A stretch of DNA of 64,000 nucleotides from IMG/VR virus record IMGVR_UViG_3300024327_000003, positions 1 through 64,000 of that record; one strand, written 5' to 3'. Position 1 is the stretch's first letter. Every line of letters begins with the position of its first letter. Below the pieces are notes generated by a model. The model was given only the letters and a program-made list of their open reading frames with translations. It was not told where the DNA came from and did no database searches. The stretch is from a virus. This document shows, piece after piece, positions 11,353-33,168 of this stretch. The position numbers and the translations under genes are program-made.

Positions 11353-12516
11353 GTGTTAGTAAAATTTTCAAATAATGTTGCCACAGCCCTAACTAATAGT
11401 ATTACAGATTCAGCTACGTCATTTGATTTAGATGACGTATCTGCTTTGCCTACGATTATATCGGGAGAGCATTTTTATCTTTCTATACTTAGCGGGGGCA
11501 ATGGAGAAATTGTTAAAGTAACTGGTGTAGCTGGTAATACGATTACTTGTGTACGAGGGGTAGATGGTACGTCTGGGACTGCTGGCTTAGCTGCTGATGT
11601 AGTTGAGTTACGCATTACAACTGCAATGCTTACGGATGCATTCGATGCCATTAGTGATTTAGCTCCTGCGTTACATTTTCTTTTTGAAACAACTACTACG
11701 GATGCAGACCAGGGTGCCGGATTAGTATCTGGAAATAATGCTACTTTTGCTTCTTCAACAATTTTATATATTACAGATGAAGACGATAACGGTGTCGATG
11801 TTTCTGGACAAACTTCTACTTGGGGAGATTTTGCTGGAGTTGGAACAGCAGTTAGAGGAACTATTGTTATTAGATCAAAAGAAAATCCAACAACTCGATA
11901 TGTTGCATTTCATATCAATGGCGCTTTAACAGACGGAACTGGTTACTGGAAATTCCCGGTAGCAAATGTTTATACTGCAGGCGTTTTGGTTGACGCTGAG
12001 CCGGTTACTATTGAATTTATTCAAGCTCCGGCTCAATCTGCATCAGCTACTTTAGCTGGAATTGTTGAATTACTTACCAGTGCTGAAGCTATTACTGGAA
12101 CAGATACCACAAGAGCTATGACTGCTGCAGCATTTCGAGCAGCGCTAGTGGACGGTAATGATACTATTTTAGGTAAGTTTAATCTTAAAGACTTTGGAAT
12201 GATTACAGTTGCTAAAGGCAATCTGGGAGCAACTCCTGCTTTTGATTTATCAGCTGGCAATTGTCAAACTGGTACTGTAGATGAAGCTATTACATCATCA
12301 ACTTTTACTAATCCGACTGGCTCAGATGAGCTCTGCTCATTTATTCTTTTCTTAACTAATGGAGGCGCATTTTCTGTGGCATGGCCTACAAGTGTTGATT
12401 GGGCCGGAGCAAGCGCACCGAGTTTGGTGGCTTCCGGAGTAGATATTTTAGCTTTTCATACTTATGATGGTGGAACTATTTGGCATGGAATATTGTTATC
12501 TGGAGATTCTAGCTAA
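11353..12516 (+). CDS. Tail fibre/appendage protein
   Basis: 387 residues. The N-terminus (SITDSATSFDLDDVSALP and VTGVAGNTITCVRGVDGT) is a small beta domain typical of virion attachment, and around residue 240-265 it has AGIVELLTSAEAITGTDTTR followed by AMTAAAF, the repeat seen in many phage side-tail fibres. The C-terminus is a Thr/Ser/Trp-rich beta domain, probably a tip. It overlaps the start of the RCC1 gene. Likely part of the receptor-recognising appendage. Confidence 0.8.
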   Translation: MLVKFSNNVATALTNSITDSATSFDLDDVSALPTIISGEHFYLSILSGGNGEIVKVTGVAGNTITCVRGVDGTSGTAGLAADVVELRITTAMLTDAFDAISDLAPALHFLFETTTTDADQGAGLVSGNNATFASSTILYITDEDDNGVDVSGQTSTWGDFAGVGTAVRGTIVIRSKENPTTRYVAFHINGALTDGTGYWKFPVANVYTAGVLVDAEPVTIEFIQAPAQSASATLAGIVELLTSAEAITGTDTTRAMTAAAFRAALVDGNDTILGKFNLKDFGMITVAKGNLGATPAFDLSAGNCQTGTVDEAITSSTFTNPTGSDELCSFILFLTNGGAFSVAWPTSVDWAGASAPSLVASGVDILAFHTYDGGTIWHGILLSGDSS

Positions 12517-13643
12517 TGTTTATATTTGGTGGTCCTAATTTTCTAATACCACAACCTACTTCAGGCAAATTGTTTGGATGGGGTAAGAATGCTTTTGGGT
12601 GTGTAGGGGATGGTACAACAACAAACCGTTATTCGCCTGTGCAAATCGGCTCCAACACAAATTGGAGTGGAGCTAAAGGCGGCTATGCCTTTACGTGTGC
12701 GATCAACACAGCGGGAAAAGCCTATGCGTGGGGTGAAGGTGCGGATGGTAGATTAGGAACAGGATCAACCACTGACACTTGTTCACCAAATCAAATTGGT
12801 GCGTTGACCGATTGGGTTCCGAAAGGCCCGTTTGCTATTGGTGGCACAAGGTATGGGATGCACTTTATCAAAGCCAATGGAACATTGTGGGCGTGGGGAA
12901 AAAATAGTTATGGGCAGATAGGTGATGGAACAACAACTGCAAGAAGTTCACCAGTACAGATAGGAGCCTTGACCACTTGGAGATATGTTTCTGCGGGAGC
13001 CAGTGAACACGTTATTGCAATTACCACTAGCGGGACTATGTTTTCGTGGGGAAGCGGCAGTAGTGGAAGAACAGGACATAGCAATACCACATCTTATTGC
13101 TCACCTGTCCAGATAGGAGCCTTAACCACTTGGGCTAGGGTTAGATGTGGTGGTTCTTCTGGCAACTGGGCTGTAAGAACTGATGGGAAAATGTTTACTT
13201 GGGGCACAGGAACAGGGGGACAGTTAGGACTTGGCAACACTACTGCTTACTCATCTCCAAAACAAGTGGGGGCCTTAACTACTTGGGCTTCGTCAATAAG
13301 CGGTACGCATCATGGCGGTTGTATAAAAAGTGACAACACCCTTTGGTCATGGGGAAGTGGTGGTAGTGGTCGAACGGGTCATAACAACACCACGGATTAT
13401 TCATCTCCGGTACAAGTAACAGCTCCGGCTGTGACATGGCTTTATGCAGATGCAGGACAGTACTCTACTATGGGACAAGATGTAGATGGCTATCTTTATA
13501 TGTGGGGTGATGGCGCACAAGGACAGCAGGGCGATGGTATCGGTTCTTCTGTGTCTTGTCCCAAACAGTTAGGAACAGAGAAGTGGCTTTCTATGCAATA
13601 TATTTCAATGGCAAATAAACATAAACATCAAATACGAACATGA
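12516..13643 (+). CDS. RCC1-repeat beta-propeller protein
   Basis: 375 residues made of seven repeats of about 50 residues. Each has a [W/F]WG.G..G..G.G.TT..SSP.Q[IV]G-like core: GWGKNAFGCVGDG, AWGEGADGRLGTG, AWGKNSYGQIGDG, SWGSGSSGRTGHS, TWGTGTGGQLGLG, SWGSGGSGRTGHN and MWGDGAQGQQGDG. Seven blades are expected to close a propeller. In phages such propellers lie among tail genes and may bind surface glycans. Lies between a tail fibre and a sulfotransferase, and its DNA is visibly richer in G+C than its neighbours. Confidence 0.9.
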   Translation: MFIFGGPNFLIPQPTSGKLFGWGKNAFGCVGDGTTTNRYSPVQIGSNTNWSGAKGGYAFTCAINTAGKAYAWGEGADGRLGTGSTTDTCSPNQIGALTDWVPKGPFAIGGTRYGMHFIKANGTLWAWGKNSYGQIGDGTTTARSSPVQIGALTTWRYVSAGASEHVIAITTSGTMFSWGSGSSGRTGHSNTTSYCSPVQIGALTTWARVRCGGSSGNWAVRTDGKMFTWGTGTGGQLGLGNTTAYSSPKQVGALTTWASSISGTHHGGCIKSDNTLWSWGSGGSGRTGHNNTTDYSSPVQVTAPAVTWLYADAGQYSTMGQDVDGYLYMWGDGAQGQQGDGIGSSVSCPKQLGTEKWLSMQYISMANKHKHQIRT

Positions 13644-15412
13644 TATATTTTCTCTCATCACTACCAAGATCAGGAAGCACTTTGCTGGCATCATTGCTAG
13701 GGCAGAGAGAGGATACGCACGTTTCAAAAACGTCTAACCTGTCTGAAACTCTAGGGGCTGTTTACAACACTATTCAGAATAGTGGGGCGACAAAAGCAGA
13801 AGGCGGCACAGATGAAGATACCTTCCGTGCGCTTGAGGGGATTGTTAAAGCCAAGTATGCCACCACAGAAAAAGAATTTATCTTCGACAAAGATAGGATG
13901 TGGCCTAACCCTAACATTATGCCAATAATGAGAGAAGTGCAGGGCGGGGGCGCACCTAAAATTGTCGCAACCGTAAGACCTATTGTTGAGTGTATCGCAT
14001 CTTTTTATTTGATTGACAAGTCGGAGCTTTCCCCTAAAGAGTGGGTTAGAACTTCTCATCTATTTAAACATTTAATGGAGTCATATAAAACTCTACAGGA
14101 AGGCTATCAGCTTGCCCCTAAAAACTTTTGTATTGTAGAATATGACAATCTTGTAAATGACCCACAGAAAGAATTAGATCGTATTGCAGATTTCATTGGG
14201 ATGCCTCATATTGACTACAAGCCTGAGATTGAGCAAGTAGAAGAAAATGATGAGGTGTGGGGGATAGAGAATCTACACACTCTGTCACCAGAGATTCATA
14301 AAAATCATATAAATGCAAGGGCTGTTCTAGGGCAAGAGCTTTACGATCATTATTCTGGTGGTGAGTTTTGGAATGACAAGCCAGAGCCAGTTAAACCTCC
14401 GCAGGTTCTTGACTTGACCCTAGAGGCTGGCCTTCATGGGCATTTTGAAAAAGCTGAAAGCATGTTACGGCAAGAGATCAAGGTAAACCCCGGCAACGAA
14501 AGAGCGCAATTCAATCTTGGGCTATACGACATGATGAATGGCAACCAAGTCAGAGGCTATAGGCAGTTTGAGTATGGCAGGACTATGAATGTCTATGGCA
14601 ACAACAACACAGCCAAGACTGCTATGCCTAGATGGGACGGTAAGCAACCGGGAACAATCTTGATGGATATGGAAGGCGGTTATGGCGATCAGTTTTTCTA
14701 TATTCGCTTTGCTAAAGACATTGTTGACCGAGGGAATAAATTAATTGTTTCTGGATGTGAGTGGCTTTCTAATATTATGCGAAGCGTGGAAGGCGTTGAC
14801 ACCTTTTGTATGCACCAAGGGTCAGAGTTTGTTTATCATAACTACTGGCTCCCCTCAATGTCTGCCCCTTTAGTGATGGACTTGGAGTATTCTGATATGA
14901 GGGGGGAGGCTTATATCCCTAGGGTTTGCCCAAGTGAAGGGAAGATCGGGGTCAAGTGGGCTGGCAACCCAAAGTTTGAACACGAACAACATAGGCTGTT
15001 CCCTAAAGAAATGATGTGGGATGTTGTAGAGGGGTTCGATGTTATATCATTCCAACGTAATGATGAGACAGGCGAAACAGAAGGCCCAGAGTGGATGGAG
15101 AAAGCCGACCTCTTTTCATGGGATATAACAATGAAAGAGCTGAGTAAGTGCGACCTGTTGCTTACTTCTTGTACTGGGCTAGCGCATCTTGCTGGGGCTA
15201 TGGGGATTGAGACTTGGATTGTCACTCCATTGCTCCCCTATCATACTTGGGCAGTACCGGGGAATAAAAGTCCGCATTATAACAGCGTTACTTTATTTCG
15301 ACAGGAACAGTATGGAAATTGGGATAAGCCATTTTGGAATTTGAAGAAAGCCTTTAGACAGAGAATGTGGAAAACAAAAGATATTGAAGATGAACTTTTA
15401 TTGCATATATAG
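13640..15412 (+). CDS. Sulfotransferase fused to TPR and glycosyltransferase-like half
   Basis: 590 residues in three parts. Residues 1-260: PAPS-dependent sulfotransferase; SLPRSGSTLLASLL (residues 7-19) is the 5'-phosphosulfate loop and IVEYDNLVNDPQKELDRIAD the later family segment. Residues ~265-310: TPR-like helices (AESMLRQEIKVNPGNERAQF). Residues ~310-590: a GT9/GT41-like region with IGVKWAGNPKF and LLTSCTGLAHLAGAMG, which resembles the nucleotide-sugar binding end of ADP-heptose-type glycosyltransferases. Together this suggests sulfation and possibly glycosylation of a surface or virion polymer. Overlaps the RCC1 gene by four bases. Fusion is clear; substrates unknown. Confidence 0.88.
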   Translation: MIYFLSSLPRSGSTLLASLLGQREDTHVSKTSNLSETLGAVYNTIQNSGATKAEGGTDEDTFRALEGIVKAKYATTEKEFIFDKDRMWPNPNIMPIMREVQGGGAPKIVATVRPIVECIASFYLIDKSELSPKEWVRTSHLFKHLMESYKTLQEGYQLAPKNFCIVEYDNLVNDPQKELDRIADFIGMPHIDYKPEIEQVEENDEVWGIENLHTLSPEIHKNHINARAVLGQELYDHYSGGEFWNDKPEPVKPPQVLDLTLEAGLHGHFEKAESMLRQEIKVNPGNERAQFNLGLYDMMNGNQVRGYRQFEYGRTMNVYGNNNTAKTAMPRWDGKQPGTILMDMEGGYGDQFFYIRFAKDIVDRGNKLIVSGCEWLSNIMRSVEGVDTFCMHQGSEFVYHNYWLPSMSAPLVMDLEYSDMRGEAYIPRVCPSEGKIGVKWAGNPKFEHEQHRLFPKEMMWDVVEGFDVISFQRNDETGETEGPEWMEKADLFSWDITMKELSKCDLLLTSCTGLAHLAGAMGIETWIVTPLLPYHTWAVPGNKSPHYNSVTLFRQEQYGNWDKPFWNLKKAFRQRMWKTKDIEDELLLHI

Positions 15413-15421
15413 GAGTAGGTT

Positions 15422-15904
15422 ATGGCACAGGGAAATCATGTTTTAGTTGAAGGCGGGGTTGTTGTTTGGGGACCTGGAGAACTTCCTCGAAGTTGGAAGA
15501 ATCATTCAGGCTTGAATATGAAAAGTGTTGCTGATCTTAAAACACTCGGTTGGTTACCATGGTCAGAAGTGCTTATCCCCTATGACAATAAAACGCATTA
15601 CCGGGATGACTACACTCACGATATTCAAGCAGATCAGGTTATTTACACTGATATTATCAGGGCATTTACAGCTGAGCAGTTAACGCAAAATAACTGGAAT
15701 GACTGGTCAACTGAAATGAGTGAAAGTGATCGATTACTAAATCCCACTTCAGAGGGGGTACAACTTCCTCGGCAAATTGAAGATGTCGTGAATATGCTGA
15801 TTAATAAGTTTCCAAATATTTTGGACGAAGCAGGAAACGAAAAGATGAAAGAACGTTATGATGCAAAAAGGGCGTTAAGAGGCATTAAGCCTCCGCAACC
15901 ATAA
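15422..15904 (+). CDS. Tail-fibre-assembly-like or small virion protein
   Basis: 160 residues. The N-terminal two thirds (LVEGGVVVWGPGELPRSWKN, KTLGWLPW, FTAEQLTQNNW) resemble short phage fibre-associated or fibre-assembly proteins, which repeat 'V.NGVV.NI...P' themes. The C-terminus is helical and charged. AGGAGTAGGTT precedes the ATG. It closes the appendage operon. Function inferred. Confidence 0.6.
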   Translation: MAQGNHVLVEGGVVVWGPGELPRSWKNHSGLNMKSVADLKTLGWLPWSEVLIPYDNKTHYRDDYTHDIQADQVIYTDIIRAFTAEQLTQNNWNDWSTEMSESDRLLNPTSEGVQLPRQIEDVVNMLINKFPNILDEAGNEKMKERYDAKRALRGIKPPQP

Positions 15905-19697: not shown

Positions 19698-20051
19698 ATG
19701 AGTGAAACATTTAAAGAAGAAGATTTTAGTACTTCGTCGTTTGATTTTACAGATGAGCAATTCTTATGCATCATCAACCATTTATTCAAATTGGATGCCC
19801 CTATGGGTGAAGATTTTGTTCCGATTGAGACAATGGATGAAGAAATTACTATCGAAAAATTAGATAGCTTGAGTGCTGTAGTTTTCTTTATCTGGATCTC
19901 TGAACTATTTGGGATCCCTGAAGACATGGTTAATGACTACATGGTGTCCGGAAAAAATACCGGCCGAGATTTAAAAGATTTTGTGATGAAGAACGCTACT
20001 CATACATATACTTATAAAGAAGCCGTAGAGTACAGCAAACGATGCTTTTAA
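19698..20051 (+). CDS. Acyl carrier protein
   Basis: 117 residues, longer than the usual 75-85 because of a short N-terminal extension and a C-terminal tail. The attachment motif Asp56-Ser57-Leu58 (in EKLDSLSAVVFF) carries the serine that receives 4'-phosphopantetheine, followed by the acidic helix II typical of ACPs (FIWISELFGIPEDMV). The host phosphopantetheinyl transferase would have to activate it. Its 3' end overlaps the ketosynthase start, so the two are one operon. Recognition is by motif plus partner gene; confident. Confidence 0.9.
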   Translation: MSETFKEEDFSTSSFDFTDEQFLCIINHLFKLDAPMGEDFVPIETMDEEITIEKLDSLSAVVFFIWISELFGIPEDMVNDYMVSGKNTGRDLKDFVMKNATHTYTYKEAVEYSKRCF

Positions 20052-21058
20052 CCCACACTAATTCTGTATATTCTGAAAATATTTCTTTATTGGATTACGT
20101 TACGTATCCCCAATACGTACATGTCGTTAATAACGGTGGAGGACCCCTGGTTAAAAAGGGAATTAAAACAGCGTGCGAAGAACTGGTTAACTACGTATTA
20201 CAAGGTAAACATGGAGCTACTCCAGGAACTTTTGAATTTTTACGCAAGTGCACGGAGTCAGAATTCAATAAAGTAGGCCTTATATTGGCTGCCGGGGGTA
20301 CGCATTGGATGGGGCATTTAACTAGCGTTAAATGGTCAGATCAATATCCTACCTATAAAATACCGGTAATGGCTGAAACGCAGATCTACGCCGGCTCAAT
20401 AGCTAATAAGATCGGAGAATTTGAATATATCTCTACCGACGCCACAAGCTGCATCAGTGGACATTCCGCTTGGTACACAGCCCGTAACCTCATGAAAGTA
20501 GGGGCTTTAGATACAGTTGTTATTATCAGCGTGGATGACGGTATTTCAGAAGACTATTTGTCGATATTTGGAGAATTTGGGTTATCTAAACTAGTCGACG
20601 AAGAGAATAACCCAGCTATTACTAAGTTTAGGTGCGGCCAGGCCTGTAATATATCGGTATTTGAGACTGGGTATTCTGCCTGGAATAACGAACATAAAGT
20701 TATTGCCCGGATTGAGGATATGTATATTGGTGCCGAATCGCATAATACGCCTTTAGGTATATCAGCTTCTGGATCCGGATACCGTAAAGTGATAGATAGG
20801 GTGTATACTGATAAGATTGATTTTGTTAAAACTCACAGTACTTTCTCCGAGGATAACAAAATAGAGGAAATCCTTATTAAAGAATTATTTGGGGATATTA
20901 AGACAGTGAATTATAAACTACGTATCGGTCACACTATGGGGGCATCTACAGCTGTTGAAACTGCATTAGCTATCCAGGAAGAATCTGGCACGTTTTTAAG
21001 TTTAGGCGCCGGCATGGGTAATGTATTTTCATCTGCAGTGGTGAAAATTGAATCATGA
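20042..21058 (+). CDS. Beta-ketoacyl-ACP synthase (FabB/FabF-like)
   Basis: 338 residues, somewhat short for FabF (~410) because the N-terminal half is compact. Thiolase-fold elongating enzyme that condenses an acyl chain with malonyl-ACP. The catalytic set is complete: Cys137 in DATSCISGHSAW, His265 in DFVKTHSTFSEDNK (the HGT-like motif), Lys292 and His297 in KLRIGHTMGAST. The gene overlaps the ACP stop and itself overlaps the next gene's start. It was compared with chalcone-type and FabH-type synthases; the two-histidine layout fits FabB/FabF better. Substrate unknown. Confidence 0.92.
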   Translation: MLLTHTNSVYSENISLLDYVTYPQYVHVVNNGGGPLVKKGIKTACEELVNYVLQGKHGATPGTFEFLRKCTESEFNKVGLILAAGGTHWMGHLTSVKWSDQYPTYKIPVMAETQIYAGSIANKIGEFEYISTDATSCISGHSAWYTARNLMKVGALDTVVIISVDDGISEDYLSIFGEFGLSKLVDEENNPAITKFRCGQACNISVFETGYSAWNNEHKVIARIEDMYIGAESHNTPLGISASGSGYRKVIDRVYTDKIDFVKTHSTFSEDNKIEEILIKELFGDIKTVNYKLRIGHTMGASTAVETALAIQEESGTFLSLGAGMGNVFSSAVVKIES

Positions 21059-31098: not shown

Positions 31099-33168
31099 AT
31101 GGCTAAAGTGATTGATTACCAGAGAGCTCACCAAATAAGAGCGGCTGATAGTTCAGGTATTTTAAATAACATACGCAATACCAATAAAGATATTATTGCC
31201 AGTCTTGGCGGTATGGTTAATACCGGCGAAGAGGCATTAGAAGATTATGTTACTAACGCTACAGATAAATTCCAAGTACAAGCCGCTCAGTTAAAAACTG
31301 ATGAAGCACGGAAAGCTCTGTTAGCTAATAGCGATCAATCGTTTTTAGATCTCGATGATATTAGCAAAGGATTTGTTGATGCTCAAAATCAAGATTTTAG
31401 AGTATCGGCCGAAGGCCGTGCAGTAGCAGCTGAGGGTCGAGCTGTAACAGCAGACGAACGAGATATCCTACAAGACGCAGTAACTCTCGATACCACTAAA
31501 GAAGCATTACGGCACAGCAAAGAAATCAATCCTGTTTCTTTAGATCAAGCAATACAGTCATTAGATGCCAGTAAAAAAGAAGCAGCACATCTTGAAGCTC
31601 TCCGTCCTGGAGCATTAATTAAACAAGGTCAAGAAATTACCAAAAACAGTTTAGATACGTTTGGTCAATTACAAGATATAGATTTAGCTGAAAAAATAAA
31701 TCCACTCAAAGTAGAAGGAGAACAGTACAAAACTAAATCTGCTAAATATCAATCAATCTCAGATAAACGAGGCCTTAAATATAAACGAGAAGAGCACGAA
31801 GCTCTGAAGCAAGATGCTATAAATAAGCAACGTATCTTTGAACAAGAATCTCAGGCTTTAAGTGATGCAAGAAAGCGAGCTCAAACTAAAGATGAGCAGG
31901 ACAAAATTGATAACGCTCAAAAAAATTTAGAGACTAAACGTATAAACGATGAATACGATAATAACGTTGCTTATAAAGCTCTCAAATTAGCAAACGATCA
32001 GGCAAGAGAAGAAAATGTGCGTAAAGATCGAACAGATAAAATAGCTGTTCAAGATAGCATAGCTGCTTTTCAGCCTAGTGGTAATTTAGATAACGATATT
32101 GCCGCATATGATGTCTTAAGACAGGGCGCTATTGACGGAAGAATGTCTGAAGAAAACAAAGCATTACTTAAACCTATCGAAGATAGATTAGTAGATCGAT
32201 ATTCTACTGATATTGATGCTAGGTTAGAGCGTCTTACTGGCGAATCTACTTCTACACTTAAGGAAAACGCATACACATTTGACTTATATAAACAATTGCG
32301 CGATGGAATTGTTGGAAATTTAGGACAACCAAGTAAATTTCATTGGATGACTGAATCTCAATTAGAAACAATTGCTGATAAAGCTATCAATGATAATAAT
32401 CCTGCGAAAATAAAATTTCGTCGAGTTACTCAAGCACTTGAACTTAAAAATAAATTAGAAGCCAGATCTAGAGAAACAGTTGCAAAGAAATATGATTTAA
32501 ACCAAGAAGATATTGAAACACTAAATCGTGATCCTGAAGCCAGTATTTATGATCGTGTACAGACTCGGTTGAAAGATGTTGATTGGGATAAAGAAAATAT
32601 TCGAGCATTGCGAAACAGCATTTCTAATACGTTTATAAAACTACGCAAGGCACTACCTGGATTATCACTTGAAGGACAAGAACAATTAAATTTAGGTGTA
32701 TTAGATTTGTATGCAAAAGCTAATTTTAATCAGGATTATATTCCTTATAATCATAATGATTTTTCATTAGCTGACGATAAAGAAACAGATATTTCTGATC
32801 GAGAAATTCCTGCATTATTTCAAGTTATACAAAGAAGTTTTGGTAAAAAGACAGATTTAGGAGATGCAATTGCTGCAATAGATGCTGCAACTGCTGAAGC
32901 TAATAAGAAGAAAAGTCAGCTAGAGAAAAGTGCTGAAAAAGTAACTCCGAAGGGATTAACAAAAGAAGAATACAGAGCTAAAAAGAAAGCTAATTTAAAA
33001 AAATATGAACAAAATCTTAAAAATGCATTAAGTCCTGATCCAGAAGCAGTAGCTAAATTAGAAGCAGCAATTGCTGCTCTAGATCCTAATGATCCTAAGG
33101 ACGCTATACAATTAAAACGATATAACCGAGTTAATGATGTTAAAAAATTCTTTGGATTTGGGAAATAA
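31099..33168 (+). CDS. Coiled-coil internal virion protein
   Basis: 689 residues, strongly charged, helical, with short tandem repeats near residue 100 (SAEGRAVAAEGRAVTADERD). Long coiled-coil segments between ~150 and 320 and a Lys-rich C-terminus. No enzymatic motif. The stop overlaps the start of the virion RNA polymerase gene (TAATG), so the two are translated in step; it is probably a DNA-ejection or core protein packed with the polymerase, in the N4 gp51/gp52 slot. Confidence 0.75.
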   Translation: MAKVIDYQRAHQIRAADSSGILNNIRNTNKDIIASLGGMVNTGEEALEDYVTNATDKFQVQAAQLKTDEARKALLANSDQSFLDLDDISKGFVDAQNQDFRVSAEGRAVAAEGRAVTADERDILQDAVTLDTTKEALRHSKEINPVSLDQAIQSLDASKKEAAHLEALRPGALIKQGQEITKNSLDTFGQLQDIDLAEKINPLKVEGEQYKTKSAKYQSISDKRGLKYKREEHEALKQDAINKQRIFEQESQALSDARKRAQTKDEQDKIDNAQKNLETKRINDEYDNNVAYKALKLANDQAREENVRKDRTDKIAVQDSIAAFQPSGNLDNDIAAYDVLRQGAIDGRMSEENKALLKPIEDRLVDRYSTDIDARLERLTGESTSTLKENAYTFDLYKQLRDGIVGNLGQPSKFHWMTESQLETIADKAINDNNPAKIKFRRVTQALELKNKLEARSRETVAKKYDLNQEDIETLNRDPEASIYDRVQTRLKDVDWDKENIRALRNSISNTFIKLRKALPGLSLEGQEQLNLGVLDLYAKANFNQDYIPYNHNDFSLADDKETDISDREIPALFQVIQRSFGKKTDLGDAIAAIDAATAEANKKKSQLEKSAEKVTPKGLTKEEYRAKKKANLKKYEQNLKNALSPDPEAVAKLEAAIAALDPNDPKDAIQLKRYNRVNDVKKFFGFGK

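Follow-up and report, generated by a model that had tools for sequence, protein, structure and literature searches.

The DNA analysed here, 64,000 nucleotides of IMG/VR virus record IMGVR_UViG_3300024327_000003 (hereafter the window; the source record has 74,681 bases), encodes a protein in which a sulfotransferase domain, tetratricopeptide repeat (TPR)-like helices and a GT-B domain of glycosyltransferase (GT) type follow one another. The ATG of its gene overlaps the stop codon of a gene for an RCC1 beta-propeller protein (ATGA, 13640–13643). Judging from sequence, we give a slightly better than even chance to the reading that this is a phage cassette for glycosylating and sulfating its own RCC1 tail propeller, with the RCC1 protein as the target of both activities. 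We have more confidence in the prediction that the fusion binds 3′-phosphoadenosine 5′-phosphosulfate (PAPS) and is a GT-B enzyme.

The fusion protein and its relatives

The original prediction, made from the letters of the window and a list of its open reading frames (ORFs), placed the ORF at 13640–15412, where it was found on the + strand, encoding 590 residues. The joined architecture aligns along its length in 29 relatives (36–52% identity) and in an 80-sequence alignment that includes the window, so the fusion is not a chance joining, and the description of these domains as one phage protein holds. An AlphaFold2 model, for which 23 sequences from the window and IMG/VR were used, has a mean pLDDT of 83.8 and a pTM of 0.61, values at which the domains are good and their mutual arrangement uncertain. 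Structure prediction of both halves had been proposed as a check; in the model the N-terminal half takes a predicted sulfotransferase fold and the C-terminal half a predicted GT-B fold. Foldseek with this model placed tyrosylprotein sulfotransferases (TPSTs) at the top and also listed SPINDLY, TibC and WaaC.

A single-protein search gave 31 loci with fusion relatives, and an alignment-based search of IMG/VR gave 486 candidate stretches, 433 of them encoding relatives; the locus work covers 80 of these relatives. The set comprises 90 sequences (L001–L089 and the window). Locus counts use 87, leaving out L001 (the window again), L032 (a fragment outside the cluster) and L034 (remote, 26% identity). 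The 80-protein alignment was drawn from these 87, minus the fragments or split forms L027, L028, L030, L031, L046 and L084 and the 1349-residue L033; its full-length proteins form 34 clusters at 80% identity and 7 at 50%, and cluster counts for fusion loci refer to this alignment alone. Neighbours are ORFs of at least 70 residues, shorter genes being passed over. Among 84,980 genomes of bacteria and archaea, a pattern scan picked out 68 candidate stretches, two of which encode relatives: L033, which is clear and lies in a Patescibacteria metagenome-assembled genome, and the remote L034. Within the reach of that scan the fusion family looks mainly viral.

The L033 protein (L033:1649-5698), a 1349-residue ORF behind RCC1, joins sulfotransferase, GT domain, methyltransferase, TPR and GT41 (OGT-family) domains, the last matching Glyco_transf_41 at 211.3 bits; its metagenome-assembled genome gave no Terminase_6N match. 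At L031:3807-5485 the fusion is split in two ORFs and in the close relative L026 it is intact, which may reflect an assembly error.

Features of the fusion gene are as follows, with conservation counted among the 80 aligned proteins.

13640..15412, + strand: sulfotransferase–TPR-like–GT-B fusion protein, 590 residues, ATG start (ORF, Pfam, model, fold)
13640..14389, + strand: sulfotransferase domain, residues 1–250 (Sulfotransfer_3 and Sulfotransfer_1; phrog_27463 over residues 2–246; fold)
13664..13687, + strand: 5′-phosphosulfate-binding loop PRSGSTLL, residues 9–16 (sequence, conservation)
13889..13891, + strand: K84 of the D-K motif (79/80)
13976..14002, + strand: 3′-phosphate-binding motif R113...S121 (conservation)
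14405..14587, + strand: four helices, about two TPR-like repeats, residues 256–316 (model, profile match)
14651..15409, + strand: GT-B domain with heptosyltransferase (GT9)-like fold, residues 338–590 (fold)
14687..14689, + strand: D350, candidate catalytic Asp (EGGxGDQ; 80/80)
15167..15193, + strand: SCTGLAHLA motif, residues 510–518 (sequence; S510 and C511 in 80/80)

Linkage to the RCC1 propeller

The fusion, earlier assigned to a tail operon, sits among tail-fibre genes by PHROG matches. Its two upstream neighbours in the window are:

11353..12516, + strand: tail-fibre protein, 387 residues, 5′ of the RCC1 gene (phrog_8469 and phrog_9017, tail fiber protein)
12516..13643, + strand: RCC1 beta-propeller protein, 375 residues, seven RCC1 repeats, proposed substrate (Pfam; best PHROG phrog_4219)

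RCC1 is the ORF directly upstream of the fusion in 78 of the 87 loci. All 78 neighbours were confirmed by Pfam (E ≤ 0.001), among them 14 in which a crude count of RCC1 motifs was zero; the window's own protein scores 175.7 bits (cut-off 21.7). The linkage is close, and in 32 of the 34 clusters at least one member has RCC1 immediately 5′ of the fusion. Elsewhere the upstream ORF belongs to cluster c2, which also contains the tail-fibre protein of the window (four loci), or is GT2-like (two loci, in each of which the fusion is the second copy of a tandem pair); three loci have none on the contig. Such second fusion copies lie at L073:7992-9776 and L075:4425-6209, with GT25, methyltransferases and a GT2-like gene between the tandem copies.

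The best evidence for the propeller as the thing acted on comes from genomes where the halves are separate genes, each with its own RCC1. In cyanophage S-SRM01 the order is tail fibre, RCC1, DUF4376 protein, RCC1, TPR-GT, five other genes, RCC1, sulfotransferase; beyond the sulfotransferase come one gene and then a glycosyltransferase, with an epimerase further along. Among IMG/VR relatives RCC1 lies directly upstream of the unfused sulfotransferase in 29 of 31 loci (the other two are at contig ends) and of the unfused TPR-GT in 42 of 47 (two at ends, three without a profile match), these sets being close (two and three clusters at 80% identity, respectively) and often from the same contigs. 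In Synechococcus phage BUCT-ZZ01, RCC1 is followed by a TPR-GT with a C-terminal methyltransferase-like domain (L092:7848-9572; Pfam 17.4 bits, under cut-off), and there is no sulfotransferase next to these genes in the stretch seen.

The enzyme might instead modify another virion protein, such as the upstream tail fibre, with RCC1 doing no more than share an exchanged module with the enzyme, or helping to keep the enzyme or glycan in place. Cluster c2 occurs in 48 of 89 sequences, and in L026, L064 and L065 the fusion lies directly behind c2 with RCC1 downstream (the fourth c2 locus has no RCC1 before the contig end). In S-SRM01 and its relatives, however, the unfused sulfotransferase and TPR-GT each follow RCC1 and not the fibre, and we judge a fibre target unlikely. 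The earlier suggestion had named fibre, propeller and host surface sugar side by side; the upstream RCC1 genes favour the propeller, and the host surface gained no positive support.

A search of IMG/VR with RCC1 as query found three loci only, probably since back-translated patterns are strict: in L093 the fusion follows RCC1, in L095 the halves are separate and the sulfotransferase comes directly after RCC1, and the 4.6 kb of L094 contain neither enzyme. RCC1 also occurs without either enzyme in a Clostridioides phage and a Helicobacter prophage, so it does not require the enzyme. Its place among tail-fibre genes suggests that the RCC1 protein may be carried on the tail. In phage W70 three proteins of phrog_4219, also the best PHROG of the window's RCC1, were found in virions by mass spectrometry, and the excerpted paper cites a suspected DNA encapsulation role for them (PMC11370258). 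Phage phAPEC6 has eleven RCC1-like proteins; the excerpt of its report gives RCC1 function in prokaryotes as without information and suggests DNA ordering (PMC7247149).

The sulfotransferase half

The window protein matches Pfam Sulfotransfer_3 at 50.8 bits (cut-off 27) and Sulfotransfer_1 at 33.5 bits (cut-off 22), and all 80 aligned sequences have a Pfam sulfotransferase match at E ≤ 0.01. R10, S11, G12, S13, T14, D83 and R113 are kept in all 80, K84 and S121 each in 79, and P9 in 78. The PAPS loop was thus rightly described as intact, and the check set in advance, for loss of PAPS-binding residues in homologues, showed these residues to be kept (RSGST and R113 in 80/80, S121 in 79/80). The best fold match of residues 1–250 is human TPST1 (5wrj; Z 18.8, root-mean-square deviation 3.5, 235 residues aligned), and heparan sulfotransferases appear up to Z 14.7.

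By sequence, the best matches in solved structures are the sulfotransferase domains of polyketide synthases, CurM and Synechococcus olefin synthase, as might be expected of an enzyme that makes a small sulfated or glycosylated metabolite. The common neighbours are propellers and tail-type genes, which argues against a metabolite, and we give that explanation hardly any weight.

A profile alignment to a tick TPST puts Thr31, present in all 80 proteins, at the position of the TPST catalytic Glu (E100 of TPST1, E99 of TPST2). Either another base serves (H213 is invariant) or the acceptor is different. Membership of the protein-tyrosine sulfotransferases was rejected on this position; the fold fits.

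The TPR-like middle and the GT-B half

The TPR-like helices of the original prediction correspond to four helices in the model, and a C-half profile matched consensus TPR proteins in PDB (best E 1.1e-5), but Pfam gives no TPR match in the window protein and one in only 4 of the 80 aligned proteins. The same profile matched only TPR proteins in PDB, with no glycosyltransferase sequence, and Pfam has neither Glyco_transf_9 nor another glycosyltransferase in the C half at E ≤ 1 in the window protein or at E ≤ 0.01 in the 80 sequences. The GT9-like end claimed earlier therefore stands on its WaaC-type fold, without Pfam profile support: residues 338–576 match WaaC (2h1f) at Z 15.4 over 225 residues, and the half matches 1psw (WaaC/WaaF-type fold) at Z 14.6 and the protein heptosyltransferase TibC at Z 14.0 over 239 residues. 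The motif given as STGLAHLAG reads SCTGLAHLAG.

Provided that the start offset of the structural match is constant, D350 would fall on WaaC residue 13, the catalytic Asp of that enzyme. The only invariant Cys residues of the GT half are Cys504 and Cys511, with Cys at position 372 in at least 90% of the aligned set. Membership of the BAHT family (TibC) was rejected: there is no four-Cys iron finger of the kind described, in the excerpt consulted, for TibC, whose candidate catalytic base is Asp110 (PMC4358343), and in the model four helices stand in place of an N-terminal beta-barrel. GT41 (OGT/SPINDLY) membership was also rejected, the window protein having no Glyco_transf_41 match.

Thr31, together with Cys511 at a position where many GT9 proteins carry Asp, would suit a protein with one or both halves catalytically dead and kept as lectin-like or scaffold domains. 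Conservation of the cofactor-binding residues and of D350, and donor-making genes in some loci, speak for active halves, and we consider dead domains very improbable.

Partner genes and proposed mechanism

At least one counted partner class is present in 55 of the 87 loci, identities being taken from representatives only: GT2-like (30 loci), GT25 (30), adenosine 5′-phosphosulfate (APS)-kinase-like (23), methyltransferase (19) and UDP-galactopyranose mutase (10), besides the heptose-type HldE-C-like (9), HldD-like (8) and HldE-N-like (7) genes, two or more of which co-occur in eight loci. GT25, GLF, methyltransferase and APS kinase (Pfam 29.0 and 33.5 versus 21.1 bits) exceed curated cut-offs; the GT2-like gene is under its own (19.7 versus 23.3 bits).

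GT25, a lipopolysaccharide family by its Pfam name, would also suit an enzyme acting on glycans of the host, at its surface or in storage, so as to block superinfection or aid release, and both folds include many glycan enzymes, as the heparan sulfotransferase and WaaC matches illustrate. The place among tail-fibre genes, the ATGA overlap and the RCC1 linkage all argue against this. A host-surface target is disfavoured, and we regard host glycans in general as a decidedly unlikely substrate.

The APS-kinase-like gene encodes a compact protein with an HxGH nucleotidyltransferase (L054:13292-14134 and 22 other loci). Its kinase half is closest in fold to APS kinases (Z 17.5 versus 14.6 for the best gluconate kinase), its other half resembles nicotinamide mononucleotide adenylyltransferases, and in L037 and L038 the kinase half stands alone. 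It is possibly a minimal PAPS synthetase. Relatives occur in Stenotrophomonas, Xanthomonas and Clavibacter phages.

We infer catalysis, donor sugar, step order, target, tail location and use as follows. The fusion would be a bifunctional enzyme of phage tail maturation, working in the infected cell. Its GT-B half would transfer a sugar from a nucleotide donor, our best guess being heptose from ADP-heptose, onto side chains of the RCC1 propeller encoded by the adjacent gene, while the TPR-like helices may assist in holding this protein. Sulfate from PAPS would be placed by the sulfotransferase half either onto that sugar or onto a side chain of the same propeller, and the modified propeller would be mounted on the tail, where the modification might serve receptor binding or tail shielding.

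Several observations weigh against this scheme. On the donor side, the three heptose genes fall under their NCBIfam cut-offs (177 versus 181.5, 101 versus 345 and 195 versus 274.6), and ADP-heptose genes are confined to 2 of the 34 clusters. The APS-kinase-like nucleotidyltransferase is not tied to sulfotransferases and so lends weak support: a Stenotrophomonas phage has it too, and the 12.7 kb seen of that phage hold no sulfotransferase match. Neither an APS-kinase nor a GT2 match turned up in the window's own record, so the host would have to supply the donors.

On the target side, the content of Ser, Thr and Tyr is alike in RCC1 proteins next to the enzyme (74) and in other RCC1 copies (66). 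Eight distinct named viruses match a half (11 records, three viruses twice). RCC1 adjoins the half in three of them (S-SRM01, BUCT-ZZ01 and AG-345-E08), but the RCC1 gene of AG-345-E08 that adjoins the sulfotransferase is two genes away from the TPR-GT, and the other five have no RCC1 beside the matching half in the stretch seen. In S-SKS1 the sulfotransferase is preceded, at a distance of about 450 bases, by a Kelch propeller gene (50.9 bits versus a cut-off of 50); the neighbour in AG-345-O18 has a Kelch match just under cut-off; AG-345-L05, of whose two places one was seen, has an oxygenase and then a lectin-like protein there; S-SCSM1 has its sulfotransferase beside an SMC/AAA-type gene; and MW202512 shows no RCC1 beside the half in the stretch seen. 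The S-SCSM1 gene (L187:7986-8831) lies amid replication and late-transcription genes, a different context.

Genomic setting

By its sequence the window genome is N4-like (Schitoviridae), having both a giant virion RNA polymerase and an N4-type terminase: a 4208-residue protein at 33168–45794 matches the phrog_2206 virion RNA polymerase (E 3.3e-175, best stretch residues 3065–4187), and the terminase of the record is 58–60% identical to those of N4-like phages, mostly of 73–76 kb. Behind the fusion lies one further gene of the cassette:

15422..15904, + strand: small downstream protein, 160 residues, conserved in the cassette (cluster occurrence)

Its cluster is found in 29 of 32 sequences, or in 40 of 89 under stricter clustering. 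It has no family match above cut-off in Pfam and PHROG-type profile searches, and by appearance only it is tail-fibre-chaperone-like. Further along, window 19698–21058 holds a gene for a small acyl-carrier-like protein (phrog_28189, no Pfam match, LDSL motif by eye) and, directly 3′ of it, one for a 338-residue ketoacyl-synthase-like protein (phrog_35856), whose best match to NCBIfam ketoacyl-ACP synthase models (E 3.8e-9) is far under the cut-offs.

Relation to known systems and meaning

The fusion shares with TPST1/2 the fold, PAPS loop and 3′-phosphate motif, and differs in its invariant Thr31, its phage origin and the attached glycosyltransferase. With WaaC it shares the GT-B fold over 338–576 and, probably, an Asp at the same early position; unlike WaaC it has no Pfam GT9 match, is preceded by TPR-like helices and lies beside tail genes. 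TibC, also of GT-B fold, is a protein glycosyltransferase that modifies an adhesin; the fusion lacks its beta-barrel and four-Cys iron finger, and the proposed substrate is a propeller and not an autotransporter. SPINDLY and OGT likewise place TPR before GT-B, SPY chains are among the fold matches and the L033 protein contains a GT41 domain, whereas the fusion has about two repeats only and no GT41 profile match. The S-SRM01 cluster has a homologous sulfotransferase and TPR-GT, each directly behind RCC1, but as separate genes seven gene products apart (five genes plus RCC1), and its record gives no joint function.

Phage virions can be glycosylated, for example in mycobacteriophages, where a phage glycosyltransferase acts on virion proteins; we know of no sulfation and no such fusion there. 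Marine phages of OM43 carry Sulfotransfer_3 genes similar to that of S-SRM01, with no fusion, RCC1 or function described in the excerpt consulted (PMC10580990). The literature searched, in the parts accessible outside subscription journals and preprints, held no sulfotransferase–TPR-GT phage protein and no sulfated phage virion.

More broadly, and tentatively, at somewhat less than an even chance, tailed phages of at least two families may carry a dedicated module of RCC1, sulfotransferase and TPR-glycosyltransferase that builds sulfated glycans on tail propellers, in some cases providing a PAPS-like and ADP-heptose supply of its own and in one case including an OGT-type domain. If true, this would be, to our knowledge and in the literature searched, the first case of a phage virion protein sulfated by a PAPS-dependent enzyme that a virus encodes, and the module would account both for phage sulfotransferases and for phage RCC1 proteins that are now orphans. 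Phage tails would then vary in a further way, through sulfate and sugar that phages attach to their own tail proteins, which reading genomes alone would miss.

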